NCBI GenBank assembly: GCA_943357105.1
Contig: CALRGC010000005.1
Coordinates: 24,310 to 58,418, forward strand
Origin: Candidatus Magasanikiibacteriota bacterium
GTDB taxonomy: Bacteria > Patescibacteriota > Patescibacteriia > Magasanikbacterales > GWA2-37-8
DNA length: 34,109 bases
Reading direction: 5' to 3'
The translations under genes were made by a program, and so were the position numbers. Position 1 is the stretch's first letter, and each line of letters starts with the position of its first letter. This document shows, piece after piece, positions 10,220 to 28,262 of this stretch. The notes beneath the pieces are model-generated. The model searched no databases and was not told where the DNA came from. It saw only the letters and a list, made by a program, of their open reading frames with translations.

Positions 10220-11480
10220 AACGCAAAAATAGGGTAGGAAATATTTAATATTTCCCAATATAAAAATACCGCAAAGCACAATTAAGTGTTTTTGCCGTAC
10301 GCAATTTCAACAAGTGCACATGGTGGATGCCTTGACACTAAAAGACGAAGAAGGACGTTGCAGGGTGCGAAAAGTTCCGGAGAGGTCCCAAGCAACCATT
10401 GACCCGGAAATATCCCAATGGGGAAACCCTCGTGCTGATGAAGCACGAATCATTCACTGAATACATAGGTGGATGAAGTAAACCTGGTGAAGTGAAACAT
10501 CTCAGTAACCAGAGGAAAAGAAATCGAAGAGATTCCCTTAGTAGTGGCGAGCGAAAAGGGAAGAGTCTAAACTTTATAAATGTTGTTGCAGTGATTGGTT
10601 GGTCTCACGATTAACTTTGAACTGTAATTTAAAGAGATAGGTCGTTGTTTATAGAGTGTTGTAAGTCGTTAACGCTAATTTCCTACAAAATTAGGCGTCT
10701 AAATTGTTTAATAGCAGAATGTCTCTGGAAAGAGCAACCAAAGCAGGTGAAAGTCCTTTACGCGAAATTAAACAGTTTAACGTGGTTAGCGCACTTGAGT
10801 AGGGCGGGACTCGTGAAATTCCGTCTGAATTTGGGCCGACTATGGTCTAAGACTAAATACTTTTAGTGATCGATAGTGAATTAGTACCATGAGGGAAAGG
10901 TGAAAAGTAGCCCGGAGAGGGCAATGAAATAGTATCTGAAACCGTGTGCTTACAAAGAGCCGGAGCCCGCAAGGGTGACGGTGTTCCTATTGAAGAATGA
11001 GCCTGCGAGTGTGCTGTATGTCGTCGCTTAAGGACCTCTGGTCCGAAGGCATAGCGAAAGCGAGTCTGAAAGGGCGAAATTAAGATGGCATGCACATAAC
11101 CCGAAACCGGGTGGTCAACCCATGACCAGGTTGAACCTTGTAGAAATACAAGGGGAGGACCGAACTCACGAGCCGTGCAACACTCGGAGATGAGTTGTGG
11201 GTAGTAGAGAAATTCTAATCGAACTCGGTGATAGCTGGTTTTCCTCGAAATAGCTCTAGGGCTAGCCTTGCGCGTTCCTAATGCTGGTAGAGCACTGGAT
11301 GAGAATTGGGTCCTTCGGGATACCGTTTTCAATCAAACTCCGAATGGCATTGGTCACTAGCGCAGGAGTCAGACGGTGACGGCGAAGCGCCATCGTCAAA
11401 AGGGGAACAGCCCAGATCGCAAGTTAAGGTCCCTAAATCTATGTTAAGTGTAAAAGGTGGTGATAATTCTTATACAACCA

Positions 11481-11512
<32 letters not shown>

Positions 11513-12287
11513 GATAGCGTAACAGCTCACTGGTCAAGAGTTTTCGCGCCGAAAATGTACCGGGGCTCAAACATAGTACCGAAGCTGCGAAATGTAGTAT
11601 TCCTTCGGGAATATTACTTTGGTAGAGGAACGTTCTTAACGCACTGAAGCTCCAGACGCGAGTCAGAGTGGAGTGTTAAGAAGCGAGAATGCAGGCATAA
11701 GTAGCAAAAATCAAGGTGAGAATCCTTGACGCTGAAAATCTAAGGTTTCCTGGGCAACGAGAATCGTCCCAGGGTTAGTCGATCCTAAGGCCAGGCCGAA
11801 AGGCGTAACCGATGGAAGAGATGGTTAATATTCCATCACTGCGTATGGTTTGGTTTATAGTGCGCATTTTTGAAGCAGCAGCGTGACTAGAATTGCACGC
11901 GGCGCAAGCCAAAGACAAAGCCTTCGGGTGGAGTCAATTACTGTGGAGAATGTGCCCAGAAAAGCTATAAATCGTTAAGCCATAAGCAATCGTACCGGAA
12001 ACCGACACAGGTAGATAGGTCGAGAAGACCAAGGCGAACGAGAGAACCTTCGTTAAGGAACTCTGCAATACAGCGGCCGTAACTTAGGGATAAGGCCCGC
12101 CCCTCGAAAGAGGGGTTACAACAAATGACCCACTGCGACTGTTTACCAAAAACACAGCTCCCTGCAAAAGCGTAAGCTAAAGTATAGGGGGTGATGCCTG
12201 GCCAGTGTCAGAACGTTAAGAGGAGAGGTGCAAGCCTTGAATCGAAGCGCTGATGAACGCCGGCGGTAACTATAACCGTCCTAAGGT

Positions 12288-12574
12288 AGTGAATTCAAGT
12301 AATTGAGTCCACTAGGATTGGGACGAATTATAGCAAATAGTAAACAGTGCAAACATGATCCAGCAGAAGATCATACATCAACAGCCATTAAAAAAGCTGC
12401 CTTACTCACAGTAATGTGAGAGATAATCCGATCATAGCTATATGCTGGGAAATCCAGAAATGGACAATCAGCAGGGAAGACTTTGATTCATTTCAAAGAA
12501 CCCTCAGAGACCAAACGCTATGCTCCTAAGCAATTAGGATGAAGATAGAGTCCGTCGTAATAAAGGAAACGAAG
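12288..12574 (+). other. group I intron without reading frame in 23S rRNA (site about L1931)
   Basis: The conserved exon sequence CCTAAGGT / AGCGAAATTCC is split by 287 nt. The exon ends in T and the intron ends in G (12574), as group I splicing requires. This places it after E. coli U1931, a site used by known introns. Core elements can be seen: a P4-like CAGCAGGGAAG (about 12470-12480), the R segment CAGAGACCAAACG (about 12506-12518) and the S segment GAAGATAGAGTCC (about 12541-12553), with the P8-type hairpin CCTAA/TTAGG between them. No open reading frame of useful size is present. The internal guide pairing was not clear to me, so the junction could shift by one or two bases (AG is repeated at both ends). 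Confidence 0.88.
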
Positions 12575-13110
12575 AGCGAAATTCCTTGTCGGGCGAGTTC
12601 CGACCTGCACGAATGGCATAACGATGGTGGGACTGTCTCAACGAAGGACTCGGTGAAATTGCAAGGGAGGTGAAGATGCCTCCTACCCGTAACTAGACGA
12701 AAAGACCCCGTGAAGCTTTACTACAACTTGCTATTGATATAAGGATATTTATGTTCAGCGTAGGTGGGACCCGCAAGGGGCCAATGAGACACCACCCTTA
12801 AATATTTTTATGTCTAATTTTCTCCCATGAATCTGGGATAGAAGACAGTGGCTGGTGGGTAGTTTAACTGGGGCGGTTGCCTCCTAAAATGTAACGGAGG
12901 CGTTTACAAAGGTCAGCTTAGCTCGGATGGAAATCGAGCTGGACGCGCAAACGCAAAAGCTGGCTTTACTGCAAGGACTACGATCCGAGCAGTTACGAAA
13001 GTAGAAGTTAGTGAACCGACTACTCTTCATAGGAAGGTAGAAGATCAACGGATAAAAGCTACTCCGGGGATAACAGGCTGATCGCGCCCAATAGTCCACA
13101 TAGACGGCGC

Positions 13111-13151
<41 letters not shown>

Positions 13152-13182
13152 TAGAAGGTCCCAAGGGTTTGGCTGTTCGCCA

Positions 13183-13215
<33 letters not shown>

Positions 13216-13938
13216 AAATAACATTGCGTTACACCATAGAAATATGGTAGTATAGTACTGACTCATAACGGTGAAACCCTACTACAAATTCGAACTGTAA
13301 GTAGAGGGCAATACCGTGGGAAGGTCAATTTATGGCAAAAATTTTCTCAACAACAAAAGCCTATGTTGCCGGATTTTTAGACGGCGATGGCTGTATAATG
13401 TTTCAGTTGGTGCGAAGGAAAGATTATATCTACGGATTTCAGATTCGCGCGAGTATTGTTTTTTATCAAAAAACCATGCATCGCGACCACCTTGAGTGGA
13501 TCAAAAGAATTTTGAAACACGGATATATTCGAGATCGCAACGACGGCATGACAGAGTACACTATCGTTGGTTTTAAATCGGTAATTGAGGTCTTGAAATT
13601 TTTGCAACCATATATAAAAATGAAACGCGAACATGTAGAAGTCGCTTTGAAAATAAGCGCTATCATGTCCGGTAAATTTACCATTGAAAAAATGGTCAAA
13701 GCCGCGCGGTTCGTAGATCAATATCAGCAATTGAATTACTCAAAAAAAAGAGTAAACACTTCCAAAGTATTGATCGATTTTTTAGCGGAACATAAATTGT
13801 ACCCCTGTAACGACTGATCTCGATAATTTCGAGACGACGGATACCACGAAAAGTATCTGTAACACGTCAGCCCCTCCTTGGTGTTGTCCAAGAGGGTGAA
13901 GGTATAGTCTGTGCCATTAGTAATAATGGAATAACACG
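13216..13938 (+). other. group I intron in 23S rRNA at the I-CreI site (about L2593)
   Basis: The exon sequence CAGAACGT / CGTGAGACAGTTCGG is interrupted by 723 nt. This is the same position as the Chlamydomonas chloroplast LSU intron that encodes I-CreI (L2593). The exon ends in T and the intron ends in G. A P4-P6-like region precedes the internal gene (13270-13325, with GGTGAAACCCTAC and GTAGAGGGCAATACC), and a P7/P9-like segment with GGTATAGTCTG follows it (about 13900-13911). The internal gene lies in a loop and is coded in the sense direction. Splicing must occur for a functional peptidyl-transferase centre, as the site is a few nucleotides from it. Confidence 0.92.
13332..13817 (+). CDS. 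LAGLIDADG homing endonuclease, I-CreI-like
   Basis: The 161-aa protein has a single LAGLIDADG motif (YVAGFLDGDGC) and matches I-CreI in length (163 aa) and in order of blocks: QKT, GYIRDR (GYVRDR in I-CreI), LQPYIKMK (LQPFLKLK), ALKI and WVDQ-like FVDQYQQLN. The catalytic-centre residues of I-CreI have clear equivalents: D19 (metal aspartate), Q46 and K98. One-motif members act as homodimers on near-palindromic sites of about 22 bp. The intron sits at the I-CreI target, and the uninterrupted rRNA gene would contain it. The frame appears intact, so the intron may still be mobile. An ATG at 13332 with GGGAAGG upstream is a reasonable start. Confidence 0.96.
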   Translation: MAKIFSTTKAYVAGFLDGDGCIMFQLVRRKDYIYGFQIRASIVFYQKTMHRDHLEWIKRILKHGYIRDRNDGMTEYTIVGFKSVIEVLKFLQPYIKMKREHVEVALKISAIMSGKFTIEKMVKAARFVDQYQQLNYSKKRVNTSKVLIDFLAEHKLYPCND

Positions 13939-23929: not shown

Positions 23930-23957
23930 AAACATTCCGGGTTTAATCGGAATGTTT
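23930..23957 (+). terminator. terminator-like hairpin after the UDP-GlcNAc operon
   Basis: AAACATTCCG (23930-23939) pairs with CGGAATGTTT (23948-23957), loop of 8. The T-tract is short (TTTAAAT), so termination may be partial, or it may serve the opposite strand. Confidence 0.6.
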
Positions 23958-23970
23958 AAATGGTAGGACT

Positions 23971-24006
23971 ACCCGACCGGACACGCAAACTGCGCGCCGG
24001 TCGGGT
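23971..24006 (-). terminator. GC-rich hairpin after the minus-strand orphan gene
   Basis: ACCCGACCGG (23971-23980) pairs with CCGGTCGGGT (23997-24006), with an inner CGCA/TGCG stem. It lies 19 bases past the stop of the gene at 24025 on the minus strand, without a T-tract. It could act as a transcript-end stabiliser or terminator, and marks the edge of the GC-rich island. Confidence 0.5.
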
Positions 24007-24024: not shown

Positions 24025-24279
24025 TCAACCCTGGAAGCACTGCTGAGCTTCGGCGGCGGAAACCGAGCTGGGCAAGCTTGCGTTCATGGTCATCCGAAAC
24101 TGGCCGGAGCGGGCGATTTCGCCACGCTTGGCATCGAGCGCCACCCACACGTACCAGGGCGGAGTGTCTTCGCCGGGGATCTGCCAGCGTTCGAAGATGA
24201 AGACGCCAGTCATGTCGACCCGCGCCAACAGTTCGGACAGTTCGCTTTTCTGGGAATCTGCAAAACGACGAGCAGCCAT
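24025..24279 (-). CDS. orphan small protein in a GC-rich island behind a SAM-I riboswitch
   Basis: This 84-aa protein, beginning MAARRFADSQKSELSELL, is unrecognised. It has a helical N-terminus, a central aromatic stretch (FIFERWQIPGEDTPPWYVWVALDAKRGEIARSG, probably beta strands) and a Ser/Ala-rich end, with one cysteine near the C-terminus. No signal peptide or membrane segment is seen. The ATG at 24279 is chosen over a GTG at 24285 because GAGGTG lies just upstream. Composition is 60-68% GC by eye, far above its surroundings, as in the orphan gene at 8494. On the same strand upstream are an unusual long hairpin (24309-24365), a terminator (24371-24403) and a SAM-I riboswitch, so its expression should rise when AdoMet is low. 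A role in methionine or AdoMet supply or transport is possible but not shown by the sequence. Confidence 0.62.
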   Translation of the reverse strand: MAARRFADSQKSELSELLARVDMTGVFIFERWQIPGEDTPPWYVWVALDAKRGEIARSGQFRMTMNASLPSSVSAAEAQQCFQG

Positions 24280-24308
24280 GTTCACCTCACACAGGTCGGG
24301 AAAGTTGA

Positions 24309-24365
24309 GATCCGACCTACACCTTTAGATAATTCGTAAAATTATTTAAAAGTGTAAGTCGAATC
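24309..24365 (-). repeat. 26-bp hairpin in the leader of the orphan gene
   Basis: Arms 24309-24334 and 24340-24365 surround a 5-nt loop. Of 26 positions, 22 are Watson-Crick. As minus-strand RNA, three of the remaining four become G-U pairs and one is A-C; as plus-strand RNA three would be mismatches. This bias suggests the minus-strand RNA fold is what has been kept. Part of one arm (AGGTCGG on the minus strand, 24312-24318) can instead pair with CCGACCT (24293-24299), next to the ribosome binding site. Confidence 0.75.
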
Positions 24366-24370
24366 TACAA

Positions 24371-24403
24371 ATAAAAAACTGTTATCCCAAAGAAAGATAA
24401 CAG
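24371..24403 (-). terminator. expression-platform terminator of the SAM-I riboswitch
   Basis: On the minus strand, CTGTTATC (24396-24403) pairs with GATAACAG (24379-24386), followed by six T (24373-24378). The competing antiterminator is ATCTTTC (24392-24398) with GAAAGAT (24439-24445), which is the 3' part of the aptamer. This is the usual SAM-OFF arrangement. Confidence 0.88.
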
Positions 24404-24434
24404 ACTACAAGCAAACTGTTCCCGTTTAAAACGG

Positions 24435-24528
24435 GCGAATCTTTCCCTAAATAGGGTCGGAATTAGCACCCTGGAGGGGGTTGCTGGGTGGTCGTAGGGC
24501 CGAATCCCTCGCACCGCTCTAGATAAAT
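24435..24528 (-). promoter_or_regulatory. SAM-I (S-box) riboswitch aptamer
   Basis: Read on the minus strand, this shows the S-box conserved segments in order: AGAGCGGTGCGAGGGA, GGCCC followed by ACGA (kink-turn and P2), CCAGCAACC, GGGTGCTAATTCC (P3 and the joining strand), a P4 hairpin CCCTA/TAGGG, and GGGAAAGAT at the end. P2 (GGTG/CACC plus GGG/CCC) and P3 (CCC/GGG with GC closure) can be formed. P1 appears short (about four pairs, ATCT/AGAT). The class represses transcription when S-adenosylmethionine is bound, normally upstream of methionine or AdoMet genes. Here the only gene downstream on this strand is the orphan at 24025-24279. Confidence 0.93.
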
Positions 24529-24543
24529 TTTCCAACTAATATT

Positions 24544-24572
24544 ATACTAACGTAAGTAATTAAAATTGTCAA
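24544..24572 (-). promoter_or_regulatory. promoter of the SAM-I riboswitch transcript
   Basis: On the minus strand TTGACA (24567-24572) is followed after 17 bp by TAGTAT (24544-24549); a perfect TATAAT (24541-24546) lies 20 bp from the same -35 box. Either gives a start about 10 nt before the aptamer. The -35 box is only 6 bases from the ATG of the divergent methyltransferase gene. Confidence 0.65.
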
Positions 24573-25472: not shown

Positions 25473-25481
25473 TTTTTGTCT

Positions 25482-26627
25482 ATGAACTTATACGAATTTG
25501 AAGGAAAAAATATTTTTAAAAAATTTGGAATTAATACGCCAAAATCTGTTTTATTACGTCGCACAGATAATGTAGGAGAAAAATATGATGAGCTTGGGAT
25601 AAAAGATGTAGTGCTCAAGGCCCAAGTATTATCCGGTAAACGGGGTAAAAACAATGGTATTTTATTTGTCGGGAATGCCAGTGAAGCCAAAGAGGCGACT
25701 GAGAAAATATTTTCTAACAATATTCGCGGTCAATATGTGGCCGCGGTATTGATGGAAGAAAAATTGGAAATTGTACAGGAACATTATCTGTCTATTACTT
25801 ATGATACCAACAAAAAACAGCCGGTCTTGGTGTATTCCAAAGAGGGCGGCATGGATATCGAAGACGTGCCGGAAGAAAAAATTCAAAAACAATATTTTGA
25901 TATTCGTCAAAATGAAATAGAATCGGACATCCCATTCGCCAAAGAATTGTGGAAATGTTTTTTGCAAAGTGATGCGCGAGTGGTGGAAATAAATCCATTG
26001 GTAATTACTGGTAGTGGAGAAAAAATTGCGGCCGATGCCAAAGTGGCGTTGGATGACGACGCTTTTTTTCGCCACAAAGATTGGGAATTTGAACCACGTA
26101 CCATGCTTGGTCGCTTACCGACCGAAAGAGAAAGCGCGGTTGGGAAAATTGATGAAGGGGAAAATTATTATCGTGGAACAGCCGGTAAATATATTGAAAT
26201 GGATGGCGATATCGCCGTATTATTTTCTGGCGGTGGCGCAAGTATCGCCAATATGGACGCGCTGATGCAAGTCGGTTTGAAGGCAGCCAATTATACGGAA
26301 TATTCTGGAAATCCGCCGCGTGAAAAAGTGGCCCAGTTGGCAAAATTGGTTTTATCCAAACCAGGTTTGCGCGGGCTTTGGATTGCTGGTGGTGTGGCCA
26401 ATTTTACGGATATTGCGGCTACGTTTAGTGGTATTATAGATGCTTTGGATGAAGTGAGACCGGCCTATCCAATCGTGGTGCGTCGGGCTGGCCCAAATGA
26501 AGATGAAGGCAAAAGATTGATGCGTGAATGTGCACAGCGTAATAGTCTTAATTTGAAAATTTTTGGAAAAGAAGTAGCGATGGGCGCGACCGTGACCGCG
26601 TTGGTAGATATGATTAACAAAAAATAA
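25482..26627 (+). CDS. succinyl-CoA synthetase beta / citryl-CoA synthetase-like ATP-grasp subunit
   Basis: This 381-aa protein belongs to the ATP-grasp plus CoA-ligase family seen in succinyl-CoA synthetase beta and the N-terminal part of ATP-citrate lyase. MNLYEFEGKNIFKKFGI, VVLKAQVLSGKRGKNNGI, RVVEINPLVIT (metal-binding ENP-type motif) and AADAKVALDDDAFFR are followed by the CoA-ligase half with VLFSGGGASIANMDA and LWIAGGVANFTDIA, which resembles ATP-citrate lyase more than typical SucC. A TTG at 25476 would add two residues; the ATG at 25482 fits family N-termini. With the next two genes it could form an ATP-dependent citrate-cleaving complex. Succinyl-CoA or another acid-CoA ligase is the alternative. 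Confidence 0.85.
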   Translation: MNLYEFEGKNIFKKFGINTPKSVLLRRTDNVGEKYDELGIKDVVLKAQVLSGKRGKNNGILFVGNASEAKEATEKIFSNNIRGQYVAAVLMEEKLEIVQEHYLSITYDTNKKQPVLVYSKEGGMDIEDVPEEKIQKQYFDIRQNEIESDIPFAKELWKCFLQSDARVVEINPLVITGSGEKIAADAKVALDDDAFFRHKDWEFEPRTMLGRLPTERESAVGKIDEGENYYRGTAGKYIEMDGDIAVLFSGGGASIANMDALMQVGLKAANYTEYSGNPPREKVAQLAKLVLSKPGLRGLWIAGGVANFTDIAATFSGIIDALDEVRPAYPIVVRRAGPNEDEGKRLMRECAQRNSLNLKIFGKEVAMGATVTALVDMINKK

Positions 26628-26628
26628 T

Positions 26629-27525
26629 ATGTCTATTTTGATAAATAAAAATACCAAAGTTTTGGTGCAGGGCATTACTGGCAAAGAAGGACAAAAAGCC
26701 GCCGCCGCGATGCGTGAATATGGCACACAAGTGGTAGCTGGTGTGCGCCCGGGGAAAGGTGGAGAAAATGTTGATGGTGTGCCGGTATATAATTCGGTAA
26801 AAGAAGCGATGGCCGCTCATCCGGATATTTCTACTACCACCATTTATGTGCCACCATTTGCGGCCAAGGAAGCAATTTTGGAGGCCATAGAAAATAATAT
26901 TGCGATTATCAATACAATTGTAGAAAGAATCCCAATTCAAGATACTGCTTATTGTTTGGCCGCGGCCAAAGAAAAAAATATTCGCCTCATTGGTCCAAGT
27001 TCGCTTGGCTATATCAGTCCGGGCGAAGGACGGGTTGGTGTGGTCGGTGGCCCAAAAGTTTTGGCAGATGAAGTTTTTCAGCCGGGGAGCATTGGTTTGA
27101 TTTCTCGTTCCGGTGGCATGACCAATGAACTTTCTTGGCAAATTCGTAAAGCTGGTTTGGGACAGAGTACGGCCGTGCACGTTGGTGGTGACTTGTTGAT
27201 GGGGACCACTTATACTGATTTGTTAAAATTGTTTGAAAATGATGAGCAAACAAAAGCGGTGATAATTTTTGGCGAGCATGGTGGAGGATATGAATTTGAA
27301 GTGGTAGAGATGATAAAAAATAAAGAGTTTACCAAACCATTGGCGGTATATGTTGGGGGTAAGTTTGCCGATCTTTTTCCAGAGGGTATGAATATTGGTC
27401 ATGCCGGCGCCATTGTTGATCGTGGTCAGAGCGCGGAAGAAAAAGAATACGCGTTGAAATCGGCGGGAACTCTAGTCGCTGACACTTACGAAGAATTAGT
27501 AAAAAAAATTAAAATTTTCGCATAA
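26629..27525 (+). CDS. succinyl-CoA synthetase alpha / citryl-CoA synthetase-like subunit
   Basis: The 298-aa CoA-binding subunit has VLVQGITGKEGQKAAAAMREYGTQVVAGVRPGKGG, PVYNSVKEA, TIYVPPFAA, IRLIGPSSLGYISPGEGRVG, the loop SIGLISRSGGMTNELSWQIRKAGLGQSTAVHVGGD, and the phosphohistidine segment NIGHAGAIVDRGQSAEEK (His in GHAGAI). This is a complete active set for a phosphohistidine CoA ligase. It pairs with the beta-like subunit one base upstream. The following citrate-synthase-fold gene is what makes citryl-CoA a more likely product than succinyl-CoA. Confidence 0.9.
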   Translation: MSILINKNTKVLVQGITGKEGQKAAAAMREYGTQVVAGVRPGKGGENVDGVPVYNSVKEAMAAHPDISTTTIYVPPFAAKEAILEAIENNIAIINTIVERIPIQDTAYCLAAAKEKNIRLIGPSSLGYISPGEGRVGVVGGPKVLADEVFQPGSIGLISRSGGMTNELSWQIRKAGLGQSTAVHVGGDLLMGTTYTDLLKLFENDEQTKAVIIFGEHGGGYEFEVVEMIKNKEFTKPLAVYVGGKFADLFPEGMNIGHAGAIVDRGQSAEEKEYALKSAGTLVADTYEELVKKIKIFA

Positions 27526-27536
27526 TAATTTTATAT

Positions 27537-28262
27537 ATGAAATGGGAAACATCAATTACTAATCTTAACAATGGGAACGAAATTATTCGTGGTAAAAAGT
27601 TATCCGCTTTAATTAAATCAAATACTTTTACCGAAACTATTTTTTTACTTTTTCAAGGCAGATTGCCCAAACCAGTCGAAACCAAAATGTTTGATGCTTT
27701 GCTAGTATCTTCGATTGATCATGGTATCGGCACAGCCTCGGCAATTACCGCTCGAGTAGTTGCTTCTACTAAAAATAGTTTTAATACTTCTCTAGGAGCT
27801 GGTATTTTAGCGCTTGGTGAGCGTCATGGTGGGGCGATTGAAAATGCAGCTAAATTTTTTATTGATAATCATAATAATAAAAATATTGTAGAAACCGTGA
27901 AGCAGTTGAAAGAGAAAAAAGTACGTTTGCCTGGGTTTGGTCATGCGGTTTTGGTAAAAGATAATCGCAGTATTGAAGTTTTTAAAGTTGCGAAAAAATT
28001 AGGGTTTTATAAAAAGTCTTGTGCCGTGGCTGTGCAAGTAGAAAAAGAATTAAATAAAATTTCATCCAAATCAGTGCCACTCAATATTGACGGTGCGATG
28101 GGGGCAATTTTGGCCGATATGGGTTTTGATCCAAAGCTCATGAAAGGTATATTCATGGTGTCTCGTGTGCCCGGCCTAGTGGCTCATATCTATGAAGAAA
28201 TCACTAACGATGCCGGGTTGCGTCGTTTGGGCGAAGAAGAAATTAGCTATATTGGAAAATAG
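27537..28262 (+). CDS. citryl-CoA lyase / citrate-synthase-fold protein
   Basis: The 241-aa protein corresponds to the citrate-synthase-like C-terminal domain of ATP-citrate lyase and to stand-alone citryl-CoA lyases: KWETSIT, ETIFLLFQGRLPKP, LLVSSIDHGIGTASAITARVVAST, GAGILALGERHGGAIENA, LPGFGHAVL, LNIDGAMGAILADMGF and GIFMVSRVPGLVAHIYEE. The catalytic triad of the fold is present (His in ERHGG, His in GFGH, Asp in NIDGA). The arginine that normally follows GFGH (GHRV) is alanine, and the DPR-type loop reads KDNR, so the acid bound may differ from citrate. The length is far below citrate synthase (about 370-430 aa), which argues for lyase. It ends the operon, just before the terminator at 28273. 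Confidence 0.86.
   Translation: MKWETSITNLNNGNEIIRGKKLSALIKSNTFTETIFLLFQGRLPKPVETKMFDALLVSSIDHGIGTASAITARVVASTKNSFNTSLGAGILALGERHGGAIENAAKFFIDNHNNKNIVETVKQLKEKKVRLPGFGHAVLVKDNRSIEVFKVAKKLGFYKKSCAVAVQVEKELNKISSKSVPLNIDGAMGAILADMGFDPKLMKGIFMVSRVPGLVAHIYEEITNDAGLRRLGEEEISYIGK

Follow-up and report, generated by a model that had tools for sequence, protein, structure and literature searches.

The 84-codon gene that lies on the minus strand of this stretch of DNA (the window, all 34,109 nucleotides that we analyzed) is very probably under riboswitch control, and the locus as a whole is probably best read as a SAM-I transcription-termination riboswitch with a single target, the gene for an 84-aa protein of a genus-restricted family. 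S-box riboswitches turn their genes on at low AdoMet and off at high AdoMet. Such control is a functional label, and here it would link a small orphan gene with the supply of AdoMet in a streamlined lineage that has not been cultured. The RNA belongs to a known class and the target is a new orphan, an unusual and possibly informative one; the open-access literature that we searched contained no account of SAM-I riboswitches from Patescibacteria.

An Rfam scan of the window returned a full-model match to RF00162, the SAM (S-box) family, running from 24529 to 24434 on the minus strand and spanning model positions 1 to 108. Its score of 50.3 bits (E 7.5e-9) exceeds the gathering score of 44.4 bits, so the covariance search bears out the identity proposed by the sequence-only reading, an earlier annotation made from the letters and open reading frames. 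SAM-I was also the sole Rfam family matched in a repeat scan of the short stretch round the aptamer, which lies on contig 5 and is the only SAM-I match in the whole Magasanikbacteria-type genome (925 kb in 34 contigs; hereafter G000). The P1 helix, described earlier as short, forms four of the eight model pairs. The 31 SAM-I loci compared (the window's and 30 of relatives) form between four and seven of these pairs, which places the window's P1 at the short end and within the range; because it is weak, switching is not certain. Upstream of the aptamer, TTGACA and TATAAT boxes form a plausible candidate promoter, their long spacer of 20 nt notwithstanding.

The terminator hairpin, CTGTTATCTTTCTTTGGGATAACAG (24403–24379), starts 30 bases past the aptamer and runs into the U-run TTTTTTAT, which extends through 24371. 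Within its 5′ arm, ATCTTTCTTT is complementary to (A)GGGAAAGAT of the aptamer's 3′ side (also written AGGGAAAGAT), with a computed duplex of −9.9 kcal/mol that was equalled by 3 of 100 shuffles. The window locus thus contains a terminator in competition with an antiterminator drawn from the aptamer's 3′ strand, the expression-platform anatomy that had been claimed for it. Nearly all of the 31 loci carry a terminator in the same position, and many have a similar antiterminator; the SAM-I/metK and SAM-I/metF loci of relatives share this aptamer–terminator layout, many of them with an antiterminator of the GGGAAAGAU:AUCUUUC type. The locus resembles RF00162 riboswitches in its full aptamer match and its expression platform. 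It differs from them in its short P1, in having a further conserved hairpin ahead of the ribosome site, and in its target, an unplaced small gene rather than a methionine/AdoMet enzyme or transporter.

That extra element, the long second hairpin of the earlier reading, is a 19-bp helix between the terminator and the ribosome site. The whole leader folds with z = −6.45, and none of 200 shuffles was as stable. In a comparison of G000 with two other genomes of the genus, G003 and G001, pairing holds in 93% of cells and two-sided changes affect 6 of the 19 pairs, as against 0 to 2 in slid controls; this covariation rests on three sequences, and the shuffle counts are indicative. In both relatives the hairpin holds AAGGAG and an ATG, and we dropped the idea of a leader peptide because this pair is absent from the window's hairpin. 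The predicted GAGGTG ribosome site likewise stands where it had been placed, ahead of an ATG at 24279. Coordinates of all features are collected in Table 1.

Table 1 Features of the riboswitch locus and its surroundings (window coordinates).
Feature	Position	Strand	Evidence
−35-like TTGACA	24567–24572	−	sequence; kept in G003 and G001
−10-like TATAAT	24541–24546	−	sequence; kept in G003
SAM-I (S-box) aptamer, short P1	24434–24529	−	RF00162, 50.3 bits, full model
GGGAAAGAT, P1/P4 3′ side, able to form antiterminator	24440–24448	−	duplex with terminator 5′ arm
Putative intrinsic terminator, hairpin and U-run; 5′ arm with antiterminator complement ATCTTTC	24371–24403	−	sequence; duplex computation
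Long leader hairpin with compensatory changes	24309–24365	−	comparison of three species; folding
Shine-Dalgarno GAGGTG	24283–24288	−	sequence
Gene for 84-aa small protein (GC 0.61, GC3 0.72)	24025–24279	−	homologues in three sister genomes; third-position excess; model pLDDT 80
GC-rich 3′ hairpin	23972–24005	−	similar hairpins after homologous genes
Terminator-like hairpin and T-run between the 84-aa gene and the convergent GNAT gene	23931–23956		sequence

The homologous frames indicate that the 84-codon frame is a genuine gene. Those of G001 and G004 encode proteins with 45% identity (E 1.5e-18), and their 29, 30, and 52 differences at codon positions 1, 2, and 3 show the third-position excess of a translated sequence. 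The G000 and G003 proteins (the latter 77 aa) are about 32% identical; their similarity is modest, with a 31-residue core in which 13 residues are identical locally (pairwise E 2e-6), and their 12, 11, and 16 differences come from an alignment too short to say much. Searched against the G000 genome, the G003 protein matches at the 84-aa locus only (E 0.006), and the two pairs (G000/G003 and G001/G004) match each other profile to profile with E 2.3e-4 in a single comparison. AlphaFold2, run on the four-row alignment, produced an alpha-beta model (pLDDT 80, pTM 0.69); the protein is probably soluble.

Scans against Pfam, PHROGs, NCBIfam, and PADLOC, together with sequence searches of the PDB, gave no significant relative, in agreement with the earlier description of the protein as unplaceable; by these same resources the gene is not a recognized methionine, cysteine, or AdoMet gene. 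Fold searches with the model in PDB and viral structure libraries also gave no significant match. The protein itself had no match in plasmid, viral, and genome-contig sequence sets, and alignment-based scans recovered only the G004 and G001 records among genome contigs and none among viral sequences. A VanA_C match (E 0.09) was taken as chance. A resemblance to DUF1508/YegP-like small proteins is a lead only: by eye, the family has a W-x-x-W … GEI motif, and Foldseek matches to 3bid (E 0.38) and 6q2z (E 1.1) are weak and not significant. None of the four homologues matched Pfam DUF1508 at E up to 10, in a search whose HMMER filters drop most very weak matches.

A homologue lies beside the same GNAT gene in four of the five genomes of the genus, and in two of these (G000 and G003) the riboswitch stands in front of it. 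Both have the order RNA methyltransferase-like gene, SAM-I, small gene, GNAT gene, with the riboswitch and small gene on the strand opposite to their two neighbors, and G003 keeps the aptamer, terminator, leader hairpin, and homologous frame at the same place. G001 retains the small gene and leader hairpin and lacks the aptamer; its terminator hairpin has neither U-run nor antiterminator complement. Such a joint absence would be predicted of a terminator and an aptamer that function as a single unit, and it argues against pure coincidence. Since the gene persists in G001 with no riboswitch before it, AdoMet control is not essential to the gene's role. The linkage that the sequence-only reading had proposed is therefore preserved in one sister genome and absent from another. 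G004 is cut short: the contig with the small gene, which adjoins GNAT, stops 17 bases upstream of that gene's ATG, and a different contig end truncates the methyltransferase gene. The one SAM-I detected in G004 stands before an MTHFR gene. G002 lacks both small gene and riboswitch, and there the methyltransferase gene sits directly next to GNAT. A profile of the four homologues, run against 86 genomes of the order, recovered the four genus loci and a weak match (E 0.002) within a long G023 frame; across 381 genomes of the class, it gave no match outside the genus at E 0.001. The protein thus appears to belong to a fast-evolving family, found so far, in the order and class genomes searched, only in its own genus.

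The strongest competitor, which we consider possible and rather unlikely, is that a working S-box came down from an ancestral methionine gene, the high-GC gene having been inserted behind it afterward and AdoMet regulation being incidental to that gene's function. Genes of this composition are common here: against a genome GC of 0.40, about 15 other small high-GC islands are scattered through the 482 kb, about half of the genome, that we examined. High GC is therefore no special sign; it is a general trait of the genome's scattered small genes, unrelated to the riboswitch, and the 84-aa gene may be one of many fast-evolving accessory genes, in this case one that ended up downstream of an S-box. 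Such islands (e.g., L069:1322-4910, L065:15394-16332, and L072:17013-17462) reach GC 0.55 to 0.66 and GC3 up to 0.84; a strong ribosome site and hairpins at the flanks are frequent. An insertion would also fit the aptamer-less gene of G001, the absence of both elements from G002, and the fact that SAM-I elsewhere also precedes unassigned frames. Against it, aptamer, terminator, and gene have been kept jointly in G000 and G003 despite the divergence of their proteins, and the hairpin between riboswitch and gene is conserved with covariation in three species.

Decay of the aptamer to a point where it no longer switches, leaving the gene constitutive in the window's species, seems to us improbable. 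The weak P1, the missing aptamer of G001, and a score only about 6 bits above gathering would all suit it, but the match covers the full model, P1 helices of four to five pairs also occur at other SAM-I loci of the class, and the terminator and its complement are intact in G000 and G003, unlike in G001. Least credible of all is a regulatory RNA whose frame is not translated: the strong leader and 3′ hairpins would be in keeping with one, yet a homologous frame in four species, the third-position excess, the Shine-Dalgarno sequence, and a fairly confident small fold speak heavily against it.

SAM-I was present in 53 of 192 genomes searched, and the next gene at the 31 loci that we read is metK in 11 (recognized by an HPDK-type N-terminal motif), MTHFR in one, SAM_HAT-like in two, and an NTP-transferase/methionine-synthase-domain gene in two, one of which was profile-scanned. 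The identifiable targets in relatives are thus AdoMet/methionine genes, mostly metK. At the remaining 15 loci, among them those of the window and G003, the riboswitch stands before a small or unassigned frame; part of these frames were profile-scanned, and the group is a source of candidate AdoMet-related proteins. In the more distant relatives, SAM-I is found ahead of genes other than the small one. The two SAM_HAT-like genes, L016:1752-2552 and L017:1699-2559, carry a SAM hydroxide adenosyltransferase C-terminal domain that falls just under the Pfam cut-off, and the target at L010:4-1329 (−) is a fusion of NTP-transferase and methionine-synthase-like domains, with L018 alike by sequence. Tandem SAM-I riboswitches occur before unassigned genes in two genomes of the class (G093:C10:330-634 and G189:C8:13652-13951).

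In contrast to the relatives' metK and metF loci, the metK of G000 (C8:18437-19561) has no SAM-I match nearby, and searches of this genome for MTHFR and, among methionine synthases, for the MetE catalytic domain found neither. With a single SAM-I and a metK that lacks one, the small gene is the only apparent SAM-I target in G000.

If this single-target riboswitch follows the known S-box mechanism, high AdoMet would close P1 in the aptamer, the terminator would form, and the gene would be off; at low AdoMet, the aptamer's 3′ strand would capture the 5′ arm of the terminator and let RNA polymerase read through, so that AdoMet shortage would switch on production of the 84-aa protein. The likely role of the 19-bp leader hairpin, which closely precedes the ribosome site, is to stabilize or process the mRNA. 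An AdoMet-linked function can fairly be inferred for the gene as a lead only: the expectation that an orphan gene under an S-box offers a functional clue holds for expression at low AdoMet, and no specific role such as salvage or uptake is supported. As a tentative conjecture, the product could be a small accessory protein that aids the cell when AdoMet/methionine runs short, for instance as a modulator of MetK or of methionine acquisition. It is similarly possible, though we would not expect it, that this undescribed small-protein family acts as an AdoMet-shortage effector, for instance one that modulates MetK or that answers AdoMet depletion by host or phage; the gene would then be the sole SAM-I target of a reduced genome with no detected methionine synthase, and its fast divergence would stem from its partners.

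Elsewhere in the window, a Group I intron family match (55.6 bits, 12379–12565, +) lies inside a 23S rRNA match (10300–13294) and is short, with no room for an endonuclease gene. At 25476–28262 (+), translations read by eye resemble succinyl-CoA ligase beta and alpha subunits, with a citrate-synthase-like gene after them; together they may form a split ATP-citrate-lyase-like module, which would be unusual for a reduced genome.
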